Shown: positions 24,437-43,531 of the stretch, in pieces
How the letters are laid out: the number at the start of each line of letters is the position of its first letter
Position numbering within the stretch: position 1 is the first letter of the stretch
DNA from: Senegalimassilia faecalis
GTDB lineage: Bacteria; Actinomycetota; Coriobacteriia; Coriobacteriales; Eggerthellaceae
Direction of reading: 5' to 3'
NCBI RefSeq assembly: GCF_004135645.1
Contig: NZ_SDPW01000001.1
Span: 496,001-560,000 of the forward strand
Length of the DNA stretch: 64,000 nucleotides
Notes under the pieces: model-generated
The model's input: the letters and a program-made list of their open reading frames with translations, nothing else
What the model was told of the DNA's origin: nothing
Databases searched by the model: none
Made by a program: the position numbers and the translations under genes

Positions 24437-25879
24437 CTACGCGTTGTCGTCGGCCAGCAGAGCGCCTAGGGCTTCCTCAAGCTGGGCAATCTGCTCGTCG
24501 TCCATGGCTTCGGAAAGCGGCTTGGCTGCTTCGCACACGACGTATTCCACGCGATCGATATAGGAATCCCACGCCCGTTCATCGACCTGAATCGCCTGTT
24601 CAGCGAAGGACGAAAGCTTCTTCACGCCATACCAGAAGTGCTCGGCGGGCAGCGCGGGGTCATCATCGAGCACGCCGCCGTAGCGCTGCGCATTGAACGT
24701 CTTCATGCGCTCGATGGCGCGGGCGATGTCGTCGCCGCCGCGCTTAGCCTCCTCGTCGACGAAATCGGGAATGCCCTCGGGGCAATCATCATCGTCGCCT
24801 TCGTCCTCGTCAGGGTCCGAGCACACGGCCCGGAAAAACGCCGAGAACGCAGAGGGAGCAGCCTCGCCGTATTCCCCATCGCTTCCGAACGCGCAGAACA
24901 ACCCACCTTGCCGCACGCTTTTCGCATACGTCGCGTACGAAGCCTTCACCTGAAGCAGCAGCTCGGTAAGCTGGGCCACGTCGACAACGCGCACGCAGCG
25001 CACCCCGCCGAACGCGGGTACGTCGAACGCAGGCATGCGCCGGCCCGCAACACCCTGCGCCGCCTGATACACCCACTCGTCCAGGCAAGCCCGCACCGCC
25101 GCGAGCGCGACATCGATGCGGTTGGCAACCAAGTCTTGCTGGCTTTCCCGCTCAACGCCGCCAAGCACGTCGACCTGCGGCAACCCAAGCGCATCCTGAA
25201 ACACGCCCACCAGCCGGTCGTCAAGGCCGCCGGGCGCACCGGCCCCCGCGCCGCCAGCAGCCGCCGCGCCGTCAACATCGCCAGCGCCAGCCACGCCACC
25301 AACCGGCGCATCCCCCGCACCTGCGTCCGCGTCCGCGCCCTCGGGCACGCACGGCTGGCCCACCTCGACCTCGCGCACGCGCGCAAGCTGCTGTTGCAAC
25401 GCGCGCGCCGCCGAGTTGAACACCGCCGCGTACCGCTCGCACGAGTCGGACGCGATCTTCGCCTCGATGGCGCCGATGGTCTGCTCCACGCGCTTCAGCA
25501 GCAAATCGCACGAGCTCATGGAGCGAAGCGCCTTGTAGCGCCGGTCCATCTGCAGCGACGGCACAATGCCCACCTGCTGATACGCGCGGTGCACGCACCT
25601 TGCCTCGTTGCGCCGCACCCATTCCCCCAGCGCGCCCTCCACTAGGCACCGGCGCAGATCGCAGCGCTCCTCATGACGCCGCCACTCGCGAAGCAGCTTC
25701 CGCGCCGCATCCGCATCGCGCTGTTGCTGCTCGTCGAAACCCTGGCTCCGACGCGAAGCCTCAAGCGCGGCATCCGCGCCAAACGTCGCGCCAAGCGCCC
25801 TGTTCAACGCCGCCTCAAGCGCATCGGCGCCCGTCAGCCCCAAAGCCGCCTCGCCGCGCGCCTCGTCCTCGCCGCCCAT
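24437..25879 (-). CDS. Unknown protein, last gene of the BREX operon
   Basis: About 480 residues, not recognised. The first half is charged and helical with several cysteines (CDLRRCLVEGALGEWVRR, LLKRVEQTIGAIEAKIASDS). A ~45-residue Ala/Gly-rich linker sits near residue 200. The second half contains an acidic stretch (SDPDEDEGDDDD) and ends in a helical segment (EQIAQLEEALGALLADDNA). No catalytic motif is evident. I chose ATG 25879, with AAGGGAG six bases upstream, over a GTG at 25897. It follows brxL by about 20 bases on the same strand, so it is probably cotranscribed and may be a lineage-specific BREX accessory. Confidence 0.7.
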   Translation of the reverse strand: MGGEDEARGEAALGLTGADALEAALNRALGATFGADAALEASRRSQGFDEQQQRDADAARKLLREWRRHEERCDLRRCLVEGALGEWVRRNEARCVHRAYQQVGIVPSLQMDRRYKALRSMSSCDLLLKRVEQTIGAIEAKIASDSCERYAAVFNSAARALQQQLARVREVEVGQPCVPEGADADAGAGDAPVGGVAGAGDVDGAAAAGGAGAGAPGGLDDRLVGVFQDALGLPQVDVLGGVERESQQDLVANRIDVALAAVRACLDEWVYQAAQGVAGRRMPAFDVPAFGGVRCVRVVDVAQLTELLLQVKASYATYAKSVRQGGLFCAFGSDGEYGEAAPSAFSAFFRAVCSDPDEDEGDDDDCPEGIPDFVDEEAKRGGDDIARAIERMKTFNAQRYGGVLDDDPALPAEHFWYGVKKLSSFAEQAIQVDERAWDSYIDRVEYVVCEAAKPLSEAMDDEQIAQLEEALGALLADDNA

Positions 25880-25900
25880 AACGTCTCCCTTCGCCACGCT

Positions 25901-28258
25901 CTACAGCCCCAGCGCCTTCACGGCCGCGTCCACGTAATCGCCCGGCGTGTAGAACACGGGGCTCACGCCCGAAATCAGCTCAGGCGGCACCGTCTGCATG
26001 TCCATGATGGACGACGTGGGCAAAAGCACCCGCTTCGCGCCGGCGTTCTTCGCCACGCGCATGATGTCCTCCAGCCCGCGAATGTCGTCGATGGTGCCGG
26101 AAATGCGCAGCGCGCCCGGCACCGCCAGAGCGTCTAGCACGGGCTTGTTGCACGCCGCCGAGCACAGGCCCACGAACTCGGCCAACGAAATCTCATCGGA
26201 CAGCCCCTTGCTTTGCAAGTCGTTGTAGTACAGCAGGAAGTCCTTCGAGCCCGCATGCATGCCGCGGGCCACGCGCGACGCGTTCGTCTCGAACAGCTTG
26301 AACGCGGCCTCGACCGAGTCGCGCACGGGACGCACGTTGCCGATGCCCTCGTGGCTGAACTTGCCCTCGCCCATCACGGCCTTGTTCTCCAACTTGTACA
26401 CCGCGAACTCGCCGCCAAGCGACTTGCCCACGCCGAACACCTGGCCCGCCATCAGCGGCCCGTCGGGAATGAGCGTGCTGTCCGTTTGCTCGGGCACGCC
26501 GATCACCTTCGTCTCAGACGGGTTCTCCGCATCCAGATACCCCAGGTTCACGTCGATGAACTCCACGCCGGCCATGATCTTGAGCTGTTCTTTCACGCGG
26601 CGGCGCCCCTCGATGGCGTATTCCAGAAGCCAGCGCACGTCCTCCTTGCCCATGTTCTGATCGGGGAACAAAAGCTTGGCCAGGCCGGAAAACGTTTTGC
26701 GCACGCCAATCTCGTCGCGCTTGTTGAAATCGCTGTTCAGGCGGAAATACTCATCGATCAGGTGCGTGTAGTCGCGCCGGCGCATCTCCTTGCAGAACTC
26801 GCTGAGGCAGTCGGTGATCAGGCCGTAGTGCTCCGTAAGCAAATCCGAGCGCATCTTGGGAATCTCCCAACCAGGCAGGTAATAGTGGATGCGGTCGAAA
26901 AACGCCGAGTCGTTGTTGAACTCGATGGGGAACGGGTCGAACAGGTGCGTGGTTTTCAGCACGTTGGCCACCGTGTCGTTGATGTTGCCCTCATACACGA
27001 TGGACGCGTCGGCGTTCATCTGGTCGCGCCCGCGCGCGAAGCTGCCCGAGGCCATGTAGTCCTTCAGGATCTGCACGGCGTTCTGGTCGCGGAAGCGCAT
27101 GCCGGCAACCTCGTCGAACGTGATGCAGTCCCAGTGGCTGACCAGCCCCAACCGCGCCGCACCGCGCGCGTTCATGCGCCCGAACAGGTTGGCCGTGGTG
27201 GTCTGCCCGCCGGAAAGCAGGATGGCGTAGGGCGAAACCTCCTTGTAGATGTGGCTTTTGCCCGTGCCGCGCGGCCCCAGTTCGCACAGGTTGTAGTTGC
27301 GCTCAACCAGCGGCACCATGCGCTCGACGAAATGCATGCGCTCGCGCTCGGTCAGCACGCTGGGCTCGTAGCCCGCCGAGCGCAGCAGCATGTCAAGCCA
27401 TTCGTCGCGCGTGAAGTATTGGCGCTGCTCGATCATGGACTCCAGGTCAAGGTTCGGCATCTGGATGGGCGTGAGGCTGGCCACCGAAAACGGCGAGTCC
27501 TCCGCCCCGCGCTTCTTTCCGACGGCGCGCTTCTTGGGCCGCTCGTCGCCGAACACTTCCATGCCAAAATCGTCTTCGTCAAGGTTCACCCGGCGGTATT
27601 CAATGCGCATGATGCACCAAATGCCCCCTTGCAAGATCTTGGAGTAGTTGCGCACGTAATCGGCCGGCATCACGAACGGCTCGATGTTCAGGTTCGTGAA
27701 ATGCGCCTCGTAGATGTCCTTGTACTCGTCAAGCACGGCCGACACCTTGTCGATGATGGTGTATTGCCCCAGCTCGCGGATCTTCGACTTGATGCGCTCG
27801 CTTTCGTCGGGGCGCACGTAGTTGTTCGTGAGGATGGTGCGAATGCGGTCAAGGCCGGCCGCCAGGTCTTCCTCGTTGTCGGTGGAGCAATACATCCCCA
27901 GCAGGTATTCCAGCACGAACGTGGGCACGTTCGCCCCGCGCTTCATGAGCGCCGTCAGGTCCTTGCGCACGATTTTGCCGCCGAAGTGCTCCAGCAGCTT
28001 GCAGTCAAGCTCGTCAGCCTGAAAGCCCACAGCCCCGGAGGTGCCCGGCATAGCCTCCCCCACGGCCACCGCGAAATCCTCGTCGAGCTGTGCCGCGTCG
28101 CCGGCGTCCGCAACCGCGCCGCCGGCGCCCGCCGCCGCAACGCCGGCATCGGCGCCGGCCGCGTCCTGCCACGTGCCGCCCGTCACGGCTTGCTCGTATT
28201 CCTCGGAAGGCTGAACTGCAGGAACCTCCCACAAATCGTCATCGTATCCAGTAGGCAT
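25901..28258 (-). CDS. brxL: BrxL, Lon-like AAA+ protein of type 1 BREX
   Basis: A 785-residue BREX effector. After an Ala/Gly-rich insert (residues ~25-60) comes the conserved N-terminal domain (ELDCKLLEHFGGKIVRKDLT, then GANVPTFVLEYLLGMYCS). The AAA+ core has Walker A CELGPRGTGKSH and Walker B-like WDCITFDEVAGMRF. The C-terminal Lon-like fold carries the expected Ser-Lys pair (GLCSAACNKPVLD and NAGAKRVLLP). BrxL is required for phage restriction in type 1 systems. It follows pglZ by about 30 bases in the operon. The Ala-rich insert makes it longer than most homologues. Confidence 0.93.
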   Translation of the reverse strand: MPTGYDDDLWEVPAVQPSEEYEQAVTGGTWQDAAGADAGVAAAGAGGAVADAGDAAQLDEDFAVAVGEAMPGTSGAVGFQADELDCKLLEHFGGKIVRKDLTALMKRGANVPTFVLEYLLGMYCSTDNEEDLAAGLDRIRTILTNNYVRPDESERIKSKIRELGQYTIIDKVSAVLDEYKDIYEAHFTNLNIEPFVMPADYVRNYSKILQGGIWCIMRIEYRRVNLDEDDFGMEVFGDERPKKRAVGKKRGAEDSPFSVASLTPIQMPNLDLESMIEQRQYFTRDEWLDMLLRSAGYEPSVLTERERMHFVERMVPLVERNYNLCELGPRGTGKSHIYKEVSPYAILLSGGQTTTANLFGRMNARGAARLGLVSHWDCITFDEVAGMRFRDQNAVQILKDYMASGSFARGRDQMNADASIVYEGNINDTVANVLKTTHLFDPFPIEFNNDSAFFDRIHYYLPGWEIPKMRSDLLTEHYGLITDCLSEFCKEMRRRDYTHLIDEYFRLNSDFNKRDEIGVRKTFSGLAKLLFPDQNMGKEDVRWLLEYAIEGRRRVKEQLKIMAGVEFIDVNLGYLDAENPSETKVIGVPEQTDSTLIPDGPLMAGQVFGVGKSLGGEFAVYKLENKAVMGEGKFSHEGIGNVRPVRDSVEAAFKLFETNASRVARGMHAGSKDFLLYYNDLQSKGLSDEISLAEFVGLCSAACNKPVLDALAVPGALRISGTIDDIRGLEDIMRVAKNAGAKRVLLPTSSIMDMQTVPPELISGVSPVFYTPGDYVDAAVKALGL

Positions 28259-28289: not shown

Positions 28290-30998
28290 CTAGAACCCAA
28301 AGTCAAGCGGCGCGAACGAAACCTCTATGCGATAAGGCTCGCGCCACGCGATCTGCCCGCTTTGGCGCTCGCGCGCCACCAGCTGATACTCCTCTTTCGC
28401 CGAAAAGTTCGAGCCCTTCAGCGTGAACTTCGCCTTCACCACGCGCTGCTGCGGGTTGTCCGACGTTTTGTCGGCATGCGCCTTCTCCACGTTGCTCACC
28501 TCATTGCCCGACGAATCGGCGAAGCACAGCTCGTACTCGCACGGCAGCACCTTGCCCACAGCGGGCTCTTCCTGAATAAGGTTCACCGTGAACAGCGAGT
28601 TCGTGATGCGGCGCTCGGGCGAAAGCACGCGCAGCGTGGCCGGGCGCGTGTCCTGGAAGTCCTTCGACCTTGCGCCCACGCGCCAGAACGTGACCAGCGG
28701 CACGCACAACTCCTGCAGGCTGACGCCGCCGTGCACGTAGCGGCAGGTGCCGCCGGGGCGTTTGATGCGCACGTTGCCCCGCGGCGTGAAGCCCACGAAG
28801 CGCCCGCCGTCGACGTCGTCCATGCCCACGCGGATGAACGGGGCCTGCCCGGCGCCGGCGCCGGCGCCGCCCGCGAACTCGGCCGCGTCGTCGGCGCGAA
28901 CGACCAGGTGGCGCTTGCCGCACACCGTGTCGGCCGCGGGAAGGTCGGTCTTGCCCACGCGCTCGCATTCGTCCAGGTCGTGGCGCGTGTACAAAAAACC
29001 GTGGTCGGCGGTTATGGCAACGCGCGCGCCGGGCGCGTCCATGCACACGCGCTTGGCCAGCGCGCACACGTCCTCCACGGCGTCGCTGCAGGCGTCGAAC
29101 ACCGAGTTCTCGGTGGCCAGCTTCTCGCCCGTGGCGTCGATGACGTTGTGGTACAGGTACACCAGCTCGGCTTCCTTCAGTAGGCTTTTGCGCTCGGCCG
29201 CGGGCATTTCCAGGTACGTGTCGGCCCGCAAGGCGCGCGCGTGTGGGCGCACAGTACGCAGCACGGCCTCGCGCTGCTCGGTGGTGGCGGTGGGCCTGCC
29301 GTCGGCGAACACCTGCCCCGTTTCGAAATCAAGCGAGATGCCCCGGCGCGGCAGCAACGCCGCCATGCCGAATTCGGTGACGGAAGGGTACGCGGCCTGC
29401 ATGCTGGAAAGCTTCACCATGCCGCCCTTCTCGCGTTCAAGCGTGCGGGCAACCTCGCGCCCCACTTCGAAGCGCAGCGCGTCGGAGATGATGACCACCA
29501 TGGTTTTCGCGGAACCCTGGCACGACGGCAGCACCTTCCAATAGAAGTCGCGCTGGCAGTCCACGCCTTCCACGTGCCCGCAATCAAGCCACTGCTGCTG
29601 CGCGGCGGCCGCCCAGCAACTGTTCGCCTCGGCCAGAAACCAGTTGGAATACAGCCCCTCGGCCCACTGCATGGCAGCGCGCAGGGGTTCTTCCAGGTTC
29701 TCGTAGCCGCGCGTGCGGCACGCGCCCGCCGTGCGGCACAGCTTGCGGTACAGCGCGTCCATGCGCCACCAATCCTGCGTGTAGGCTTGCCACACCCGGG
29801 CGGGCTGCGCCTCGTGGAAGCCCTGGGCGTGAGCAGCTTTGAACCCGTGCATGTCGGCGATGGCCTCAAGCGCCTCGAAATAGCAGGCCACGCGCGCGTG
29901 CCATGCCAGGTTGCAGCGACGGTCCACCGCGGTGCGGGCATCGGCCTCGCGATCGGCGCCCTGCGCGAACGACTCGAACAGCGTTGCCAGAATGGCCTCG
30001 TTGATGCAGGGGAACACGTCGCATTCCACGATATCGGCCAGCGGCGCGGCCGCGAAGCGAGCCGCAAGCCCGCATTCGTCCTCCACGCGGCGGCACACCT
30101 CGAACAGGTCCTCGGAAGAGAAGCGTGCGTCGCGGTCCCAATCCTTCACCACGGCCAGGCAGTACTGCGCGTTCTGCGAGGAAATGCGGCCTTCAAGCCC
30201 CGCAAGCGCGGCAGCGGGGATAGAAAGCGAAGCCGCCGACAGCAGCACGTGCGAAGCCAGCTCGGCGAAGGTGGTAGCGCCGTCAAGCGCGCCCGAAAAG
30301 TCGGTGATGCGCTGCACCCAACGCGCCAGAGCCTCGCCGGCGCCGTATTTCGCGAACGTCTCGAACGCCGCCGGCCCGCCGTTGTGCAGAAGCTCGCGCA
30401 GATACCCGCGCACCACGAAACCGCCCGTCGCGTCGTCGGGCGAGGCGCCATCGAGCAGCGCGGCCAGCACGCCAAGCTCCACGTCGGCGCCCGACGCCGG
30501 CGCCGGGCAGCACTTCGAGAAGCGCCGCACGCGGTCTTTCGCAGCGAAGAACGCACGCATCGCCTCCAGCGCCGCGCGCACGTCGGTGGAATCCTCGGCG
30601 TTCAACTCGTCGGCCAGAAGCGACAGGAAGTCGGCCTGGAAATGGTCGGCGAACAGCTCCACGTCGGCCAGCCAATCGCCCTCGATGTCGCCGCGGGCGC
30701 GCTGGCGGTACACCAGCAAATCGCTTGCAACGTCGCCGCGCGAAATCAGGCGCTTCACCTCGAACATACCGCCTTCCGCCGCCTTCACGAAGCGCACGGG
30801 CCGCGCGAACCCTTCGCCCGCCGGCATAACGGTATCCGTTGCGCCCGCGCCGTCGAAGCCCCGTTCGGCCAGGCCGTCGAACGCGTCCTCGAACTCGCCG
30901 GCAGGATCGTTCCAAATCACGATGCGACGTGCAGCCGCAGGCGCAAGCGGCTGCGCGAACCGCGCCTTCAACTGCCCTTCAACATCTATCTTCGCCAT
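28290..30998 (-). CDS. pglZ: PglZ, BREX type 1 phosphatase-domain protein
   Basis: A 902-residue BREX core protein. The N-terminal BREX-1 part begins KIDVEGQLKARFAQ with RRIVIWNDPAGEFEDAFDGL. The alkaline-phosphatase-superfamily domain (residues ~480-740) carries VVIISDALRFEVGREVART and VAITADHGFLYTRHDLDE, metal-binding motifs of PglZ. A short GGAGAGAGQ insert occurs before the final domain. The start at ATG 30998 is preferred over upstream ATGs, whose codons look non-coding. PglZ is essential for BREX methylation and defence. It sits between the pglX C-terminal part and brxL. Confidence 0.93.
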   Translation of the reverse strand: MAKIDVEGQLKARFAQPLAPAAARRIVIWNDPAGEFEDAFDGLAERGFDGAGATDTVMPAGEGFARPVRFVKAAEGGMFEVKRLISRGDVASDLLVYRQRARGDIEGDWLADVELFADHFQADFLSLLADELNAEDSTDVRAALEAMRAFFAAKDRVRRFSKCCPAPASGADVELGVLAALLDGASPDDATGGFVVRGYLRELLHNGGPAAFETFAKYGAGEALARWVQRITDFSGALDGATTFAELASHVLLSAASLSIPAAALAGLEGRISSQNAQYCLAVVKDWDRDARFSSEDLFEVCRRVEDECGLAARFAAAPLADIVECDVFPCINEAILATLFESFAQGADREADARTAVDRRCNLAWHARVACYFEALEAIADMHGFKAAHAQGFHEAQPARVWQAYTQDWWRMDALYRKLCRTAGACRTRGYENLEEPLRAAMQWAEGLYSNWFLAEANSCWAAAAQQQWLDCGHVEGVDCQRDFYWKVLPSCQGSAKTMVVIISDALRFEVGREVARTLEREKGGMVKLSSMQAAYPSVTEFGMAALLPRRGISLDFETGQVFADGRPTATTEQREAVLRTVRPHARALRADTYLEMPAAERKSLLKEAELVYLYHNVIDATGEKLATENSVFDACSDAVEDVCALAKRVCMDAPGARVAITADHGFLYTRHDLDECERVGKTDLPAADTVCGKRHLVVRADDAAEFAGGAGAGAGQAPFIRVGMDDVDGGRFVGFTPRGNVRIKRPGGTCRYVHGGVSLQELCVPLVTFWRVGARSKDFQDTRPATLRVLSPERRITNSLFTVNLIQEEPAVGKVLPCEYELCFADSSGNEVSNVEKAHADKTSDNPQQRVVKAKFTLKGSNFSAKEEYQLVARERQSGQIAWREPYRIEVSFAPLDFGF

Positions 30999-31088
30999 AT
31001 GGCAAACACTCCGTTCCACGGCGCGCCCCAGCGCGCCGAACACTCTTGCAACCCGCATGCGGCGCCGGCAGCCCAGCCAACGCCCGCC

Positions 31089-32063
31089 CTACTTGATCTT
31101 CGCCAGCACGTCTTCGAACTTCGCGTAGTTCGCTTTCACTCCGTCGTCCAGGTCGATGACGATCATCTGGTCGGCCAGGTGGTGCAGGCGCTCCTCGAAC
31201 GCGATCGTTTCGGCGAGCTGGTCGGAGAGCTTCCGGCGCTGCTTCTCCAGCTTCACGCGCTCGCCCTTCTCAGCGCTGGACAGCTGCTCGTCGATGAAGC
31301 TCATCTGTGCGCGGTAGCGTTCCTGCTGCTCGTGCACGTAGTCGGTGCGCACGCGCGCGAGCAAGTCTGGCTGGTAGCGGTGCAGGTACGCAAGCGCCTT
31401 GAAGCCGTTTTTCTTGCCTGAGTCGAACAGCCAGTAGATGGGGCGCTTCTTGTAGGTTTGGCAGTGATCCTTGAAGAAGTCCTTCAGGAAATACGCGCGG
31501 ATGACCTGGCGAGACGTGCCGCGCCCGCCGAGCGCCTCGGCGACGAAGCGCAGGTTCTCCTCGAGCGTTTCGGCACCATAGGCCGCGCGCATGAACTCCA
31601 CGAAGCGCCCCACGATGTCATCGTCGAAGTACTCGTCGTCAGTGATGGGCAGCACGTTGTCGGCGTCGGGCATGAAGCTGACGCGCGATGCGTCGCCGTC
31701 GGCCACCTTCGCAACGTAGTTATCCACCGTGTCGCCCTGGTCGGCCAGCACCAGGCCGTCGCGATCAAGCGAGTAGCGCCCGAACATGCAGCCCACCGCG
31801 TAGCTGATAAGGCTTACGATCTCGTCGCGGCGCGTGCGCACGTACTTGTTGCCCTTGTACGACTCGGGGATCTCCTCCGCGGTGTCGAAGATGCGCGCCA
31901 CGGACACGTACTTGTCCTCCACCTCGATGGGCACCTCGCCCACCATGTGGTAAATCTCCGCGAAGATGCGGTTGAGCTCTTCCTCGTTCGCACGAAGCTG
32001 CTCGAACCGCTCGTTCACCTCGGCCTTGCGAGCCTCATACTTATCAGCCAAAAGCGTAGCCAT
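31089..32063 (-). CDS. pglX: C-terminal part of PglX, separated as its own reading frame
   Basis: A 324-residue protein matching the C-terminal helical region of BREX-1 methyltransferases: NEEELNRIFAEIYHMVGEVP, ISYAVGCMFGRYSLDRDGLV and KKRPIYWLFDSGKKNGFKAL, which in other genomes belong to one ~1200-residue PglX. Here a new ATG at 32063 with AAAGG upstream starts the fragment, 1.27 kb away from the end of the methyltransferase part. It has no catalytic motif. It may still be translated and could complement the methyltransferase part in trans. A second upstream ATG at 32141 would add 26 unconvincing residues. Confidence 0.85.
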   Translation of the reverse strand: MATLLADKYEARKAEVNERFEQLRANEEELNRIFAEIYHMVGEVPIEVEDKYVSVARIFDTAEEIPESYKGNKYVRTRRDEIVSLISYAVGCMFGRYSLDRDGLVLADQGDTVDNYVAKVADGDASRVSFMPDADNVLPITDDEYFDDDIVGRFVEFMRAAYGAETLEENLRFVAEALGGRGTSRQVIRAYFLKDFFKDHCQTYKKRPIYWLFDSGKKNGFKALAYLHRYQPDLLARVRTDYVHEQQERYRAQMSFIDEQLSSAEKGERVKLEKQRRKLSDQLAETIAFEERLHHLADQMIVIDLDDGVKANYAKFEDVLAKIK

Positions 32064-32239: not shown

Positions 32240-32773
32240 ATGGAAACCGCTGCTGAAAACCGCCTTTCCGTCGCCATGCGCTTGCCAAAGCACGAGGTGC
32301 AGATCGTCAACGCGTACGCGAAGGAAAACGGCCTTACCAAAACCGATGCGTTCCTTCACTTCCTTCGGCAAGGAATAGCAAGCGAAAACGAACGCGCCGA
32401 CAGCGACCGTCTGCGCTCCATCGAGCAGCTGCTGCAGGAGATCCTCCACAAGGTAGATGCTCCGGCAGCGGCTCCCAGCATCACCGATGTGCGGCGATGC
32501 GTGGCAGCCGAGGCGGCCAAGTTCCCCGCCATCGAAAAGGTCATCCTCTTCGGCTCGATCGCGCGCGGCGATGCGGGTCCACAAAGCGATGTTGACCTTC
32601 GCCTGGTGCTCGACCGGTCGGAGCAGTTCAGCCTGTACGACCTGGCGCACCTGCAAAAAGTCCTAGAGAAGCGCCTTTCCCACGAAGTCGACATCATCAC
32701 CGCCGATACGCTGAAGAACCAAAACCTAGCCATGGCCATCGAACAAGAAGGGGTAGCGATCTATGAGCGCTAA
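32240..32773 (+). CDS. Ribbon-helix-helix plus MNT nucleotidyltransferase antitoxin
   Basis: A 177-residue two-domain protein. Residues ~8-45 (NRLSVAMRLPKHEVQIVNAY, then AKENGLTKTDAFLHFLRQGI) form a ribbon-helix-helix DNA-binding unit. Residues ~85-175 are a minimal nucleotidyltransferase domain with VILFGSIARGDAGPQSDVDL (GSxxRGD..SDvDL metal-binding motif). MNT proteins neutralise HEPN RNase toxins by AMPylation. The fusion of an RHH repressor to MNT gives one protein for both control and neutralisation. It is opposite in direction to the surrounding BREX genes and overlaps the start of a truncated HEPN gene by an ATGA-type junction. Confidence 0.8.
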   Translation: METAAENRLSVAMRLPKHEVQIVNAYAKENGLTKTDAFLHFLRQGIASENERADSDRLRSIEQLLQEILHKVDAPAAAPSITDVRRCVAAEAAKFPAIEKVILFGSIARGDAGPQSDVDLRLVLDRSEQFSLYDLAHLQKVLEKRLSHEVDIITADTLKNQNLAMAIEQEGVAIYER

Positions 32774-32805
32774 GGAAAACGACCTCTTGCGAATCAAAAA
32801 CCTAA
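32763..32805 (+). pseudogene. 5' stub of a HEPN toxin gene
   Basis: An ATG overlaps the end of the MNT gene, the usual arrangement of MNT-HEPN pairs. Codons read MSAKENDLLRIKNLI, the typical first helix of a HEPN partner. From about 32805 the sequence is the 3' end of the convergent HEPN-like gene, so the toxin is cut after ~15 residues. The following plus-strand codons to 32984 are antisense noise. Confidence 0.55.
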
Positions 32806-33332
32806 TCACCCTTCCGCTTCTTACTAAGCAATTTTGCCCATTTCAAAAGAGCGTCCATCTTTATAACAGCCCTTCCTTTCAGCTCTCCATCCGCTCGATT
32901 CTCCAAGACCAAATAATGTTCCGGCCCATCAGTCGAAATACGGAAACCACCATGTGCCAGGGCGTTTCGAATCAGATAGAATAGCGCCTCGGTTTTGTTA
33001 AGGTCAGACCTCTTGCAATGAACCGCGAATTCAAAAGAGCAGTCATACCCGTTTAACCTGTCAAGCTTTTCAAGCTCTTGTTCAACATTTTTTATCGGGC
33101 AATCAACCCAATGCCCTTTTTCAAACAAGCCCGATGACTCCCTCATTTTGGCGTGGAGCGTGGCGTAAGCATGATCCTTCCATCCGAGGTCTTCGAAAGT
33201 TTTGCCCTTAACAGAAGCACCGGGGACAGGAGATTCAAAAACGTAAAATTGGACGATATTTTGCAGATCAGGCTCAGATTGCAGCTTAACCCGACTCTTA
33301 AAACTCCATTTCCGTTTTCTATTTTTGCCCAT
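32802..33332 (-). CDS. HEPN-like domain protein nested inside the split pglX
   Basis: A 176-residue basic protein of unknown exact function. Near residue 135 it has ALFYLIRNALAHGGFRIST, containing the RNxxxH-type RNase motif (RNALAH) of HEPN domains, with a beta-hairpin-like continuation (HYLVLENRADGELKGRAV) as in stand-alone HEPN proteins. The start MGKNRKRKWSFKSRVKL lies seven bases past the pglX stop. Codon use and base composition are AT-rich, like the last third of the pglX methyltransferase part and unlike the rest of the window. Could be an RNase effector or toxin; the functional assignment is inference. Confidence 0.6.
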   Translation of the reverse strand: MGKNRKRKWSFKSRVKLQSEPDLQNIVQFYVFESPVPGASVKGKTFEDLGWKDHAYATLHAKMRESSGLFEKGHWVDCPIKNVEQELEKLDRLNGYDCSFEFAVHCKRSDLNKTEALFYLIRNALAHGGFRISTDGPEHYLVLENRADGELKGRAVIKMDALLKWAKLLSKKRKGD

Positions 33333-33339
33333 AACGCAC

Positions 33340-35413
33340 CTACACCAACGGATTGCGTTTGAAGTCCCAGGAGGTTTCAAACGAGTCCCAGTCGAGTTTG
33401 GATAATTTGATGTTGAAGCTGGACAAGTCGTCAATCAACTTCGACTTCCCCCTGTCATCTATCTCTAATAGGGGAAGAGATTTAATATCTCTAACTTGAA
33501 GATTCATCGTAGGATTAAGAATGTCGAGATATACTTGGGCAATTGAGCAATTCAGGAATGCGAGACACCAAGTCTCTCGATCACCAAGCTTGCATATTAC
33601 TGGCCCGGATTTATCCCAAATACAACCGTCATCAATATGGCGAAAACAAGCCCTGCCGGAAGTTAACATTGTGTATGTAATTCCGCCTTGGTACCAATAG
33701 CGCTTTGGCAACAAAGTAGATGTCGGATTATCGCAATAATATCCGCATGCATCATCGGACCAATCAATCACGTGGATAAGATTCCCGTACCAACGACGAA
33801 ATTCACCGCCCTTAGAATAGGGCATCCAACTATGCCCAACTTTACATGAAGTGACCTCCCAGAAAAACCTAAGATAAAGGTCATTATTACCTGTAATGTT
33901 TGGACTTCCGGTGTAATCAGAAATAGAATCAACTGAATACCCAGCTATAAAGGCATCGAGCGCAGTCGATGGTAACCAGTAGGCTATGGGGGTGCCGGGG
34001 ATTTGTTTGAAGGCGTCGGCGTTGCGGCGGTAGAACCAGCCGCAGTCGGGGTTTTGGATGGCCTCGAGCGCTCGCGGCGCCTGGACATTGGCACCGGTAA
34101 AATCGGCCAGGCGCACGTAGCCGCCCTCGTAGCTGTCAATGTGAGAGTTGTGGAACGTGAAGGTGCATATAGGCACCGTCGCCCCAGCGAACCCGGAGTA
34201 CTCCAGCTGAATCAAGGACGTGATTGTCTTCTCGTTAATCAGCTTCACGCGAAGCTTTTCATAGCTGCCAATAAACATCCACACAAACGGGGTCATCATG
34301 CCCACTTCGCCATGCTCTTTAGCGAAATCGGTAATGCGCGCGATGAACGACGAGAACAAATCGCTCTTCACGTCGGGATAATGCTTCTTCACCCACTTGC
34401 TCATGAAAGGGCCGAAGCTGCTGGACCCCATATACGGAGGGTTGGCCACCACGCAGTGGCAGCGCTCGGCCAGCGCGTCACACACGTCCTTGGCGCAGGC
34501 CACCCTTCCGGCAACGTTCGCCGTGAACATGTCGCCACCGGCGGAGCGGGACAGCGCCTCAGCGTCGGCGGCAAGCGCCGCAAGCTCGTCTTCCGTCGGA
34601 TCCAGCAGGCTGCCCACCTCGTCCAGGTGCGCCAGCGCCTCCAGCAGATGCGGGTGCTTGCGCAGCGCGGCGGTCTCGGGCAGCTCGTCCTCGGCTATAA
34701 CAACGGGCGCCAGCACGCGCACCTGGGCCCGCACCCCCCTGCCGAAGAAGCGGCGGTCGTGCTCGCGGGCACACATGGCCAGCGCCAGGCTTGCCAGCTG
34801 GACAGCGCGCGGGTCAATCTCCAGGCCGCGCAGGTTGTTCTGCAGGATCAGGCTCGGGATGTCGCGCTCGCGGTGGCCGCGCTCCAGGTACATCGCGAAC
34901 AACAGCTCGAACGCGTACACCAGGATGTGGCCCGAGCCGCACGCCGGGTCGCACAGGGTTATGTCCTCGGGCCCATCGACGGCGATGAAGTCCTCGTGGG
35001 CGGCGTCGGGCTCGATATAGTACTCCATCTGCTCGCGCAGGGGGCTTTGCGGGTTGTTCAGCATCCACAGCCTGCCCAGGCTGTTCTGCACCATGTAGCG
35101 CACGATCCACTCGGGCGTGAACAGCTGGGTGGCCGCCGGCAGCGTTTCGGGCGTGGCCTTGTCCTTCGACTTGAAGAACGCGTCCTTGGCCTCGGCGTTG
35201 TAGTACTGGTACATCCAGCCCAGGATCTCCACGTGCCCCAGCCAGTCGGCCTCGGGGATGCCCTCCACCATGGCCTCGATGACGCCGCCCTTCGCCATGA
35301 GGCGGTCGGGCAGCAGCAGCTCCATGGCATCGCCCACCGGCTCGAACACGCCCGGCAGGCACGCGGCCAGCTCGCGGCACTGACACAACAGCAGGTAGCG
35401 GAACAGCGCCTCG
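33340..35413 (-). pseudogene. pglX: PglX methyltransferase and target-recognition part, cut by IS21
   Basis: The main body of the BREX-1 adenine-N6 methyltransferase. SAM-binding motif I is ITLCDPACGSGHILVYAFEL, and the catalytic motif IV is CHCVVANPPYMGSSSF (NPPY). The target-recognition region follows and ends DWDSFETSWDFKRNPLV and a stop. The 5' end is severed at 35413 by the IS21 element. Joining this to 37704-38145 with one copy of the 5-bp duplication gives an uninterrupted 837-codon frame. From about 33980 to the stop the DNA becomes clearly AT-rich. Without the N-terminus it is unlikely to be expressed as a functional enzyme. Confidence 0.88.
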
Positions 35414-35574
35414 TGTTAGCGCTACTGTAAAAACAACCATTTTGACCAACGCTCAATAACCAATCATGCCAACGCAATCCCGCCATTTGCGCCAACGCAT
35501 TTTCACCATTTCCACCAACGCCGGGACTTACGCTTCGATCGACGAGCGAACGATGCTTTCGGGAGGAGCGGGCC

Positions 35575-36813
35575 GTGGCGGAGAAGAACCTGATCGGAGA
35601 GTTGGACATGTACAGGGAAGCGGGCATAAAGCCCAACTTCAGCGACATAGCGAAGCGCTACGGCAAGGACAGGCACACCGTGGCGTCGTACTGGAGGGCC
35701 GAGGGCGGGCGGCCCCACGACGGGCGCGGCGACAGGGCGGGCTCGTTCGACGCGCACATCGAGGAGGTGGCAGCCAAGGCGCAACTGCCGGGAGTCACCA
35801 AGAAGGGCATCCACGAGTGGCTGCTGCACAGGTATCCCGGCGAGGACCTGGCCGGCTACAACGCCTTCACCCAGTTCATGCGCAAGAACGGCATCGCCGT
35901 CGGGGCCTCCGGGGGCCCGGAGCCGCACCCGCGCTTCGAGACGCCGCCCGGACTGCAGCTGCAGTTCGACTGGAAGGAGTCCGTCAAGATGGCAAACCGC
36001 GACGGCGAGCTGTTCGAGTTCAACGTGTTCGCGGCGACGCTGGGCCATTCCCGCAGGCACATATTCATCCGGTCGAGGACCAGGACGACCGACGACCTGG
36101 TCAGGTGCATGTACGCCACGATCGCGAGGCTCGGCGGCGTGCCGCGCGAGTGGGTCACGGACAACATGTCCGCCCTGGTGACGATCAAGGGCGGCAGGCG
36201 CCTCAAGGTCCAGCGCGCATACGAGTTCGCCAAGGCCGCCGGCTTCGAGCTGAAGCTGTGCCGCCCGCGCAGCCCCCAGACGAAGGGCAAGGTCGAGTCG
36301 TCGAACCGCTTCCTGTCGCGGCTCATGGCCTACCAGGGCGACTTCGACGGCTGGGACGATATCGACGAGATCGTCGCGCGGATCGAGGACGCCAGCAACT
36401 CCGAGCCCAACGAGACCACGGGGCTGCCGCCCTCCGCGCTGTTCATGGAGGAGAAGGACGCGCTGCTGCCCGTCGGCAACCTGCGCGCCCTCGAGGAGGC
36501 GATGGGCGACGTGGTGCGCGTGGCCAGGGTGCCGGCCACGATGCTGGTGAGCGCGCACGGCGAGCCCATGTCGGTGCCCAGGCGCTGCATCGGCAGGCCC
36601 GCCCGCATCGTCTGCATGCCCGGCGGCGCGATGGACTGCTACGTCGGCGGCGAGCTGGTGGCGACGCACGTGGCGGGCGGGCCGGCCTACGACCCGGCGC
36701 ACTACGCCGAGGCCATGGCCGGCAAGCGGTGGTTCGGCGACGCCGCCGGCGACATCGAGGCGGCCGCCGCGGCCAACCTCGGCCTGCTCGACTCGATAGG
36801 GGGCTCGCTGTGA
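35575..36813 (+). CDS. istA: IS21 family transposase IstA
   Basis: A 412-residue DDE transposase. The N-terminal HTH is IAKRYGKDRHTVASYW; the rve-type catalytic core shows LQLQFDWKESVKMANRDGE (first D), REWVTDNMSALVTI (second D) and QTKGKVESSNRFL (E). It starts at a GTG preceded by GGGAGGAG, and its TGA overlaps the istB GTG. Appears intact. Confidence 0.93.
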   Translation: MAEKNLIGELDMYREAGIKPNFSDIAKRYGKDRHTVASYWRAEGGRPHDGRGDRAGSFDAHIEEVAAKAQLPGVTKKGIHEWLLHRYPGEDLAGYNAFTQFMRKNGIAVGASGGPEPHPRFETPPGLQLQFDWKESVKMANRDGELFEFNVFAATLGHSRRHIFIRSRTRTTDDLVRCMYATIARLGGVPREWVTDNMSALVTIKGGRRLKVQRAYEFAKAAGFELKLCRPRSPQTKGKVESSNRFLSRLMAYQGDFDGWDDIDEIVARIEDASNSEPNETTGLPPSALFMEEKDALLPVGNLRALEEAMGDVVRVARVPATMLVSAHGEPMSVPRRCIGRPARIVCMPGGAMDCYVGGELVATHVAGGPAYDPAHYAEAMAGKRWFGDAAGDIEAAAAANLGLLDSIGGSL

Positions 36814-37598
36814 GCGCCGCCGTGCAGGCCAGCCCCCTCAACCGCCTGGCGGCCAACCTCGAGGAGCTGGGGCTCGAGGGCATGGCGTCGTCGGTGCCCG
36901 AGTACGTCAGGCTCGTCGCCGACGGGAGGAAGAGCCTGGTCGACGCCATGCTCGAGCTCACCGACGCCCAGATAGCCCTCAAGCGGCGCGCCGACGACGA
37001 GCGCCGCACGAGGATGGCCAACTTCCCCTACATAAAGACGCTGGCCGACTTCGACTGGGGCTTCCAGCCGAGCGTGCCGCGCGGGCTGGTCGAGCAGCTG
37101 GCCACGCTCGAGTTCATCGACCGCGGCGACAACGTCGTGCTCGTCGGCAGCCCGGGCGTCGGCAAGACCCACCTGTCGATAGCCATAGGCCACGAGGCGG
37201 TGATGGCCCGCAAGCAGGTGTACTTCGCCGACTGCTCGAGGCTGGTCGAGGACCTCAAGCACGCCTCGGCGAAGGAGGCGCTGGCGCGCAGGATGCGGTT
37301 CTACGAGCACTGCAGCCTGCTGATAATAGACGAGCTCGGCTACCTCGACATCGGCAAGGAGGGCGCCGACCTGCTGTTCCAGCTGGTCAACAGGCGCTAC
37401 GCGCTCAAGCGGTCGACCATCGTCACGACCAACGTGCCGGTGGGCAGGTGGGGCGACGTGTTCGGCAGCAACGTCACGGCCTCGGCGGTGGCCGACAGGC
37501 TTTGCCACCATTGCGCGATGATCAAGATAACGGGACGGTCATATCGCCTGAAGGACGTATCCATCGGCGGTGAGGACGGGAAGGAGGAGGGCGCCTAG
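36810..37598 (+). CDS. istB: IS21 family ATP-binding helper IstB
   Basis: A 262-residue AAA+ ATPase similar to DnaC. Walker A is LVGSPGVGKTHLSIAIGHEA, Walker B is SLLIIDELGYLDIG, and sensor 1 lies in RSTIVTTNVPVGRWGDVFGS. It starts at GTG 36810, overlapping the istA stop (translational coupling). It assembles on DNA and directs IstA to the target. Confidence 0.93.
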   Translation: MSAAVQASPLNRLAANLEELGLEGMASSVPEYVRLVADGRKSLVDAMLELTDAQIALKRRADDERRTRMANFPYIKTLADFDWGFQPSVPRGLVEQLATLEFIDRGDNVVLVGSPGVGKTHLSIAIGHEAVMARKQVYFADCSRLVEDLKHASAKEALARRMRFYEHCSLLIIDELGYLDIGKEGADLLFQLVNRRYALKRSTIVTTNVPVGRWGDVFGSNVTASAVADRLCHHCAMIKITGRSYRLKDVSIGGEDGKEEGA

Positions 37599-37703
37599 AC
37601 GCCGGAAGCGGCGCATCAGCGTTGGCGAATCCGGCGCATCCGCGTTGGCGCGATTGGCGAAAATACGTTGGTGAAAATGGTGAAAAATATATTGACGCTA
37701 ACA

Positions 37704-38145
37704 CCTCGTCGTCGCCGGCCTGCTTCAGCTCCACCACGCGCGCCGGGTCCATGTCCCCGATCTCGACGTCGAGCGCCTGGTCGAGCGCCTGCGAGCCGAG
37801 CGCGCCCGCCTCGTCGGAGAACATGCGCGCGCGGCTGGGCAGGTAGTCGCGCAGCTCCATGAAGCGGATGGCCACGATGCGGTTGAACCACGTGTAGGCT
37901 GCCTTGTCACGCAGGCGAGCCCAGCCGCGGGCCGCGTCGCCCGCGCCCAGGGCGTCGCGCTGGCGCAGCAGGTCGGCGCGCTGGGCGCGCTCCTGGGGTG
38001 ACAACGGCACGCCGGCCACGGCATCGAGCTGCTCGGCCGCGTCGGCCTCGGGCGTGACGCCGTATTTCGCCATGCACAGCTCGACGCCGCGCGTCAGCTG
38101 CTCGCGCGCGAAGGAGCAGAAGTTCTTGATGGCTGCATCGTTCAT
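37704..38145 (-). pseudogene. pglX: N-terminal part of PglX, severed by IS21
   Basis: Starts MNDAAIKNFCSFAREQLTRG and reads through WFNRIVAIRFMELRDYLPSR, the conserved PglX N-terminus, to VVELKQAGDDE at the IS junction. AAAGGGGA precedes the ATG. Translation then enters the insertion sequence and stops after ~60 foreign residues. It is 24 bases downstream of the brxC stop in the operon. Precise loss of the IS would restore the reading frame into the methyltransferase part. Confidence 0.88.
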
Positions 38146-41796: not shown

Positions 41797-42429
41797 CTAA
41801 GAGATGTCGAAAGCGCGGTAGTAATTGCCATCGTCAAGCATGTTGAACAGGGAAAACGACTGCCCGTTGAAGCGGCCCGGATACGCCACCACCACGGGGA
41901 TGTCGCCGAATGCGACGTGCATGTTGTCAAGCAGCGTGTGCACGCGCAGAAACGGGTAGATTTCGCCCACGCCGGTAAGCAGCAGCACGTCGCCGGGCTG
42001 GTGCGGCTCGTAGGCAAGCTCGGCAGCCAGCGCCTCGGGCGTGGCGATGCTGCGCAGGCGTTTCAGCAGGTGGTCGCTGCCGCGACGGGCTTCCTGCTTG
42101 GGCACGGCGGCCAGGATGCGCTTTTTCTCCAGCAGGCCCAAAAACGTGTCGTACAGGTTGCGCACTATCAGGTTGCACGGCAGCGCGCCGTTGGCCGATT
42201 CCGCTTCTAGCTGCGCGAAGAACTCGCGCGCCCGCAGCTCCAAGCTGGCGTCGTAGCAAAACGTGAAGAAGCCGATTTCGTTGCCCAGGCCGCGGTTGTG
42301 CAGGAAGTCGTCTTCGCCCAGGCGGGCACGCAGGGCCTCGCAGCGACGGGCGAAATCGTCCTGCGCGCGGGCGGCTTTCGAGTGCGCTTGCAGTGTGCGC
42401 GATGCGTATTGGTAACGCGACGGGACCAT
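41797..42429 (-). CDS. brxB: BrxB, BREX type 1 core protein (DUF1788)
   Basis: A 210-residue soluble protein. The stretches FFTFCYDASLELRAREFFAQ, LIVRNLYDTFLGLLEKKRIL and VLLLTGVGEIYPFLRVHTLL, then IPVVVAYPGRFNGQSFSLF, match the DUF1788/BrxB family, whose C-terminal VlLltGVGevyPfvR..... P.v.f.PG is diagnostic. Its ATG directly abuts the brxA TAA. Intact; biochemical role unknown. Confidence 0.92.
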   Translation of the reverse strand: MVPSRYQYASRTLQAHSKAARAQDDFARRCEALRARLGEDDFLHNRGLGNEIGFFTFCYDASLELRAREFFAQLEAESANGALPCNLIVRNLYDTFLGLLEKKRILAAVPKQEARRGSDHLLKRLRSIATPEALAAELAYEPHQPGDVLLLTGVGEIYPFLRVHTLLDNMHVAFGDIPVVVAYPGRFNGQSFSLFNMLDDGNYYRAFDIS

Positions 42430-43306
42430 TTACATCGCCCCCATTCCGGACAAGCTGCGCGCAAGGTCGGCGTCGCCGTTGGCGCGCATTAGCTCCTCGA
42501 CTTCGAAGTCAATCAGCAGCGGGGAAAGGTTGCCGGCTTTCACGGAGTCCAGCATGCCCACGCTGACCAGGCAATTCGACAGCGTGGATTCGATGCGCTT
42601 CACCGTGGATTCCGTCCACTTCGCCGCCTGCGTGTTTTCCAGCTGGTAGCGGGCGAAAAACGCGTTCATATCGGCCATGGTGAAGCTGTAGTTGAAGCTG
42701 CGCAGGCGCTCGGAGATTTCGCCCATCACGAACGCGCGCACCAGCTCGTAGCGCCGCACCATGGCGTAGAAGTCGACTTGTGCGGCGGCGTCGGGCGACC
42801 CGTGGGCGATGATTTCTGTGAGCCGGGCGGCGATGCTTTGGGGTTCGGCCGCGCTTGCGGGCGCGGCGGGCGGGATGACTGACTGGCCGGCGTGCGCGAC
42901 GGGCTGATTGGCGGATGCGGGCGCGGCGGGCTGGCCGGCGGGTCGATTGGCGGCTGCATCGAGTTGGCCAGCTGATTCTGCAGCCGTTGCAGACTGGCCA
43001 GCGGACGCAACAGGTGCAGCGAGCTGGTTGGCGGATGTGGCAGGCGAGGCGACCGGCTGGCCGGCGGGTCGATTGGGTACATCATCAGCGTTTTCGAGCG
43101 CATCGAGGCGCTGTAAGCACACGCGAGCGCGATCAGCCAGCATGCGCTCGGTGCGGTATTGAAAGAGGTTTTCGCGCTGTACGCGCTGGATTATCTGGTC
43201 GTCGGGAACTCCCTGCGTGCGCAGGTCAGCGACGATGCGCAGTTCACGGAGCAGGAATTGCTCACGAGTGAGCGACCCCCCCCGCAGTGTATTTAGGTAG
43301 TGCCAC
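42430..43306 (-). pseudogene. brxA: BrxA (DUF1819) with a poly-G frameshift at the N-terminus
   Basis: The main frame encodes SLTREQFLLRELRIVADL, QRVQRENLFQYRTER and, after a ~75-residue Ala/Pro/Gln-rich insert, VRRYELVRAFVMGEISERLR, matching BrxA/DUF1819. The natural start is GTG 43306, with AGGAGG eight bases upstream, giving MALPKYTAGG, the expected family N-terminus. A G8 run (43276-43283) then shifts frame, so the two parts are out of register by one base; G7 or G10 would join them. As written, translation ends four codons later at TGA. Internal starts such as ATG 43143 would give a truncated protein. Either phase-variable OFF or a sequencing indel. Confidence 0.75.
43276..43283 (-). repeat. 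G8 homopolymer tract inside brxA
   Basis: Eight consecutive C on the plus strand (G on the coding strand) covering codons 8-11 of brxA. Tracts of this length slip at high frequency in many bacteria, and the present length puts brxA out of frame. Confidence 0.85.
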
Positions 43307-43531
43307 GAATAGCTCCTCCTGTTGCGGCGCCGCTTGCTTCGGGCGCCGGCGCTTTCACCATACGTACCAATCCATGATAGCCGTTGCCCGCAATTTGCCA
43401 GAGCACAACAGCCGTCGACGCCGGATTATTCGGCATAAGCCATAGTCACCATACCGCCATTCCTAAAGCATTTGTTGTACAACAAATCGCGGCAAGACAT
43501 GCGAACGTCATGACAGGGATTCCATTTTTGT

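Follow-up and report, generated by a model that had tools for sequence, protein, structure and literature searches.

In a 64,000-nt stretch of the Senegalimassilia faecalis genome (hereafter the window; contig NZ_SDPW01000001.1, positions 496,001 to 560,000), the first gene of a type 1 bacteriophage exclusion (BREX) operon, brxA, is separated from its start codon by a run of eight G residues that leaves the gene out of frame. Judged from the sequence, this G8 is very probably a slipped-strand (contingency) switch, heading the operon, in its OFF position. Across the order to which the strain belongs, tracts of this kind likely act as a translational gate that has arisen repeatedly at the head of type 1 BREX, with the tract in a leader open reading frame (ORF) or at the 5′ end of brxA or brxB; with a split pglX carrying hypervariable cargo, it would give population-level ON/OFF control of the whole defence cluster. 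The case for the switch rests on relatives rather than on the window's own strain.

The reading frames at the start of brxA are unambiguous (Table 1). After the GTG at 43306, the codons are GCA CTA CCT AAA TAC ACT GCG GGG GGG GTC GCT CAC TCG TGA, with MALPKYTAGG as the peptide leading up to the shift, and the BrxA body lies one base out of register with this frame; removing one G or adding two brings both into one frame. This bears out what the earlier note on this DNA had claimed: that the GTG with its AGGAGG site opens MALPKYTAGG, that the BrxA body follows in another frame, and that eight G stand between them, seven or ten of which would join the parts. The body is BrxA by both Pfam (PF08849, E = 4e-41, in two stretches) and PADLOC (BrxA, 7e-37). 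In the frame of the body, no ATG, GTG or TTG was found from the preceding stop at 43428 down to the ATG at 43143, and a start at ATG 43143 would lose 44 conserved residues of BrxA. The tract is the sole G or C run of at least 7 in the 64-kb window, and long G runs are rare in the genome as a whole, with G8 at 38 overlapping positions, counting both strands, in 2.75 Mb.

The two conserved halves of the window BrxA are also set apart by a low-complexity, repetitive linker of about 85 residues rich in Ala, Pro and Gln (ANRPAGQP.. units, 42830–43095), an extra segment not present in the BrxA of Slackia. A scan of the genome collection with the single window BrxA as query returned no matches, which this odd linker probably explains; a query made from an alignment found relatives. 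Two other genomes of the window's genus gave no brxA match.

Relatives share the tract at the same site and differ in its length. Slackia isoflavoniconvertens DSM 22006 has a layout like that of the window (GTGGCACAACCTAG), with G9 in frame with the BrxA body, and out-of-frame G9 runs occur at brxA in the metagenome-assembled genome (MAG) Eggerthella sp. S9M_St_61, where G7 or G10 would be needed, and in Adlercreutzia sp. ZJ176. All three runs fall at a matching GG-S-L[TS]RE junction, and they share the position RGG-S/V-LTRE with the tracts of the Collinsella-type genomes below. The closest comparison comes from a Collinsella-type genus, in which eight genomes have near-identical brxA genes, four with G9 (ON) and four with G10 (OFF). 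G9 gives a 227-aa frame from a GTG, G10 closes the frame after 21 codons, and no indel other than the tract occurs within the brxA frame. On a tree built from 5 kb of operon sequence flanking the tract, with the tract excluded, its state changes at least two times, and the ON genome G292 and the OFF genome G291 are sisters with 100/100 support. Another genus supplies a second near-relative pair, G336 (G9, ON) and G333 (G10, OFF). In both sets, therefore, repeat length differs between close relatives with conserved flanks, and the repeat lies near the 5′ end, where changes of one unit shift the reading frame. A search of plasmids gave a C. aerofaciens replicon as the sole near-relative match. 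The note had proposed aligning brxA starts in related genomes and had held that absence of a G tract there would count against an on/off switch; the tract is present at the same place, near-identical alleles differ by one G, in frame at G9 and out of frame at G10, and the proposal of a poly-G switch in BREX gains support.

We then asked how far the pattern extends by scanning 397 genomes of the window's order, within Coriobacteriia, of which 59 contained BrxA, and by collecting their operons, which were sorted into subtypes A and B with a profile made from six subtype-A sequences. The operon head was taken as the 1.07-kb interval from −420 to +650 of the brxA body; the interval was picked after the runs had been seen, which is immaterial given the size of the contrast. 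In the 41 operons of subtype A, mostly with [STAV][LI]TRE bodies, the heads (43.7 kb) contain 27 G or C runs of at least 8, spread over 26 operons and ranging in length from 8 to 11, as against 2 such runs in the 446 kb outside the heads, a density about 140-fold higher in the heads. Subtype B (17 operons, mostly with SMSGS-type BrxA and often with pglZ ahead of pglX) has no G or C run of at least 8 in 18 kb of heads or in the remaining 152 kb. Runs of this length were also absent from the pglX of the operons examined and from the vicinity of brxA on viral contigs and in other Actinomycetota. Within this sampling, in which just 13 of 396 genomes from the phylum had a brxA match, the pattern seems restricted to Coriobacteriia.

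The tracts are built into the operon heads in several ways. In the leader-ORF type, the tract lies inside a short leader, exactly one of whose three registers ends at the brxA start. In G245, G223 and G248, which belong to one genus, the G9 register ends with a TAG directly before the brxA GTG (ON), and the remaining registers stop 41–55 nt earlier. G195 has G10 and is OFF; G9 would end 3 nt before the ATG. For G005 (G10), G301 (C11) and G324 (C9), all OFF, one unit less or more would create an ATGA overlap, and for G008, G106 and G061, also OFF, ON registers of 83–122 codons end 0–11 nt beyond the first base of the start codon. All eight leader loci tested have one register that terminates at the start of brxA; by our own product of per-locus fractions, the chance of this in shuffled spacers is about 9e-8 across the eight and about 2e-6 across six unrelated loci. 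The rates for G301 and G324 are 0.76–0.77, their spacers being short and hence of little discriminating value. Anaerotardibacter muris (C9, ON) is a ninth leader case, in which the path from leader to brxA runs by way of a small intervening ORF.

Other operons have the leader fused in frame to brxA, namely the pair G336 (ON) and G333 (OFF) described above and G334 (G11, ON), and in Ellagibacter isourolithinifaciens a C10 (ON) lies at the 5′ end of brxB. Two further operons show runs elsewhere. An in-frame G9 lies inside brxC of G148 (L142; AERYLGGGSLGENL), at +1887 of the brxA body, a possible brxC switch. In G323 (L165), C10 runs lie at +1296 and +14854 of the brxA body, one of them just ahead of the brxC start; the brxC match of this operon is short, and it is possibly a promoter-spacing or decayed variant.

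As assembled, the 27 operons with a head tract (the 26 of the survey and Anaerotardibacter) comprise 12 ON and 15 OFF. That 15 of 27 are OFF argues that the tracts are not neutral in-frame accidents of coding sequence. In the OFF operons checked, several of which are cut by contig ends, the brxA, brxB and brxC matches are free of stops except in the Eggerthella MAG (G017), and this sparing of downstream genes argues against decay.

What follows for slippage rate, expression and phenotype we infer from these arrangements. When the run of the window gains or loses G, ribosomes from GTG 43306 would enter the BrxA body (G7 or G10) or stop at the TGA at 43264–43262 (G8); in the leader types, the ON register would deliver ribosomes to the brxA start through stop–start overlap, adjacency or fusion. 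OFF cells would lack BrxA, and the rest of the operon would probably be expressed at a lower level, through the TAA–ATG junction with brxB or through polarity on untranslated mRNA. BrxA is required for methylation and defence in the BREX systems of Acinetobacter (PMC9122589) and Salmonella (PMC12839542), and where it is required, OFF would mean no BREX methylation and no restriction. If subtype A behaves like these two systems, OFF should silence BREX. Individual cells could thus probably gain or lose the defence at random.

Homopolymers are the usual site of sequencing and assembly errors, and an erroneous eighth G would hide a true G7 and an intact brxA. We think this quite unlikely, with 15 separate assemblies carrying out-of-frame tracts (G8, G9, G10, C9 and C11) in operons whose other genes are unshifted; even a G7 in the window would leave the tract a recurrent, length-variable element of its relatives. 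Ordinary decay of a dead operon, with a brxA that drifted out of frame beside an insertion sequence (IS) of IS21 type in pglX, is unlikely as well. The insertion is real, and in the Eggerthella MAG decay has affected the operon beyond brxA, but the element looks recent, with matching ends and a perfect target duplication, and decay would neither build runs of 8–11 G or C at 26 operon heads and nearly nowhere else nor produce, in intact operons, pairs of almost identical alleles of which one is ON and the other OFF.

Poly-G runs can slip in transcription or translation, and the out-of-frame brxA has a good start codon and ribosome-binding site, as would suit programmed frameshifting or transcript slippage that yields BrxA at a fixed ratio. 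However, start and body do not keep a constant offset, almost identical alleles being in or out of frame, and the leader architectures call for stop–start coupling, not frameshifting, which makes this reading very improbable. Least credible is an accident of codon usage, with GGG GGG being by chance the codons of a conserved Gly-Gly ahead of S/T-L-T-R-E. Gly codons are indeed to be expected at this site, where RGG or DG is encoded in many relatives, but other relatives use GGCGGC or GACGGG, runs also occur where there is no conserved Gly-Gly (C runs, unrelated leader ORFs and brxB), and in-frame accidents would not leave 15 of 27 tracts out of frame. Simple decay, programmed frameshifting and a codon accident were each considered and rejected.

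Several points nevertheless weigh against a slipped-strand switch. No tract is found at the head of 15 of the 41 subtype-A operons. The tract variants compared come from species representatives, and in the Collinsella group purifying selection on brxA is only weak (N/S 1.9–2.7). The OFF states of the window, where pglX is interrupted, and of the Eggerthella MAG, with its decayed downstream genes, could be decay. Finally, BrxA is dispensable in E. coli BREX (PMC12839542); by analogy, turning off brxA alone might fail to silence BREX here.

The operon of the window holds brxA, brxB, brxC, pglX, pglZ and brxL in one cluster, with pglX in three pieces (Table 1), and NCBI models for BrxC, PglX, PglZ and BrxL support a type 1 set. 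The first break in pglX is a 2,290-bp IS21-type element with ends TGTTAGCG/CGCTAACA and a 5-bp target duplication, CGAGG; without it, the empty site would be an open frame. From the matching ends, the perfect duplication and the open frames in the rest of the operon, the insertion looks recent. The intact pglX of a type 1 BREX is thus missing from the window, and the locus, BREX-1 by content, is from its sequence probably not a working copy; the BREX of this strain is probably off anyway owing to the insertion.

Table 1. Features of the BREX operon, listed from the start of brxA to brxL (window coordinates)
Feature	Position	Strand	Evidence or remark
AGGAGG ribosome-binding site (43320-43315) and GTG start (43306-43304) of brxA	43304..43320	-	sequence reading
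G8 tract, proposed switch	43283-43276	-	G7 or G10, brxA in frame; G8, out of frame
TGA closing the G8 (OFF) frame	43264-43262	-	after 14 codons
brxA body, intact ORF	42430..43275	-	281 codons and stop; opens SLTREQFLLRELRIVADL
brxB	41797..42429	-	ATG directly after brxA stop (TAAATG)
brxC, 1205 aa	38170..41787	-	NF033441, 1087 bits
pglX, N-terminal part up to the IS insertion	37704..38145	-	PADLOC PglX
IS21-type element inside pglX	35414..37703	+	istA 35575-36813; istB-like frame to 37598
pglX, methyltransferase part	33340..35413	-	NF033452 positions 163-899
Cargo between two pglX parts	32240..33350		MntA-like nucleotidyltransferase 32240-32773 (+); unknown protein 32802-33350 (-)
pglX, C-terminal part, separate gene	31089..32063	-	NF033452 positions 906-1209
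pglZ (type A, BREX-1)	28290..31058	-	TIGR02687
brxL	25901..28258	-	PF13337, PF20442, TIGR02653

The second gap in pglX is of a different kind. Nearly all related operons laid out have a separate gene for the PglX C-terminal part (MATL..DKYEA.KAE.N.RF.QL.ANEE.LNRIF...), and the second gap in the window is therefore the normal split of the subtype. The hinge in subtype-A operons is fixed, after ...WDxFETSWDFKRxPL, and 0.7–6.9 kb of cargo precedes the C-terminal gene, varying even among near-identical Collinsella-type operons; an unsplit pglX (1,184 aa) occurs in one operon (G296, L164). Lying within a methyltransferase gene, the hinge has the look of a hotspot for cargo. The earlier note had covered neither this normal gap nor the IS21-type break, nor the wider theme of leader ORFs, brxB and C tracts.

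The cargo of the window, an MntA-like nucleotidyltransferase with an adjoining 182-aa unknown protein, is a possible toxin–antitoxin or defence pair. Following brxL, a 486-aa ORF (24437–25897, minus strand) has no match in Pfam, PADLOC or NCBIfam.

If the switch is real, commensal gut Actinomycetota could carry BREX without bearing its cost in every cell, and some brxA genes annotated as 'frameshifted' or 'missing' would be OFF phases. The natural G9 and G10 variants also offer a route to asking if type 1 BREX can work without BrxA. Frequent disruptions of pglX have been interpreted as phase variation (PMC9122589), and a search of the open literature, whose coverage leaves out most subscription papers, found no report of a tract in brxA, its leader or brxB of a BREX system. 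The tract is most likely a slipped-strand switch at the head of BREX-1, a control point new to the literature searched, in which phase variation by a tract was on record only for pglX of type 2.

The closest precedent is the phage growth limitation (Pgl) system of Streptomyces coelicolor, a type 2 BREX. PMC4365076, citing Sumby and Smith 2003, describes a G8/G7 tract that switches pglX at frequencies of 1e-2 to 1e-4; the earlier note had given poly-G phase variation as established for some BREX pglX genes. Both systems place a tract of 7–8 G in a BREX-family gene, and in S. coelicolor gain or loss of one G switches phage defence; there, however, it is the methyltransferase gene of type 2 that contains the tract, whereas the type 1 operons here have it in brxA as their first gene, in a leader ORF or in brxB. 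Phase-variable type I and type III restriction–modification systems (reviewed in PMC12707154) are similar in that slipped-strand mispairing in a simple sequence repeat close to the 5′ end sets a defence gene ON or OFF by frame. They differ in that methyltransferase or specificity genes are switched, whereas the gate of the operon here would be BrxA, a DNA-binding subunit, or a leader peptide. Compared with type 1 BREX in general, the window has all six genes in the order brxA-brxB-brxC-pglX-pglZ-brxL but departs from it in an out-of-frame brxA and in a pglX that is split at a hinge with variable cargo and interrupted by an IS21-type element.
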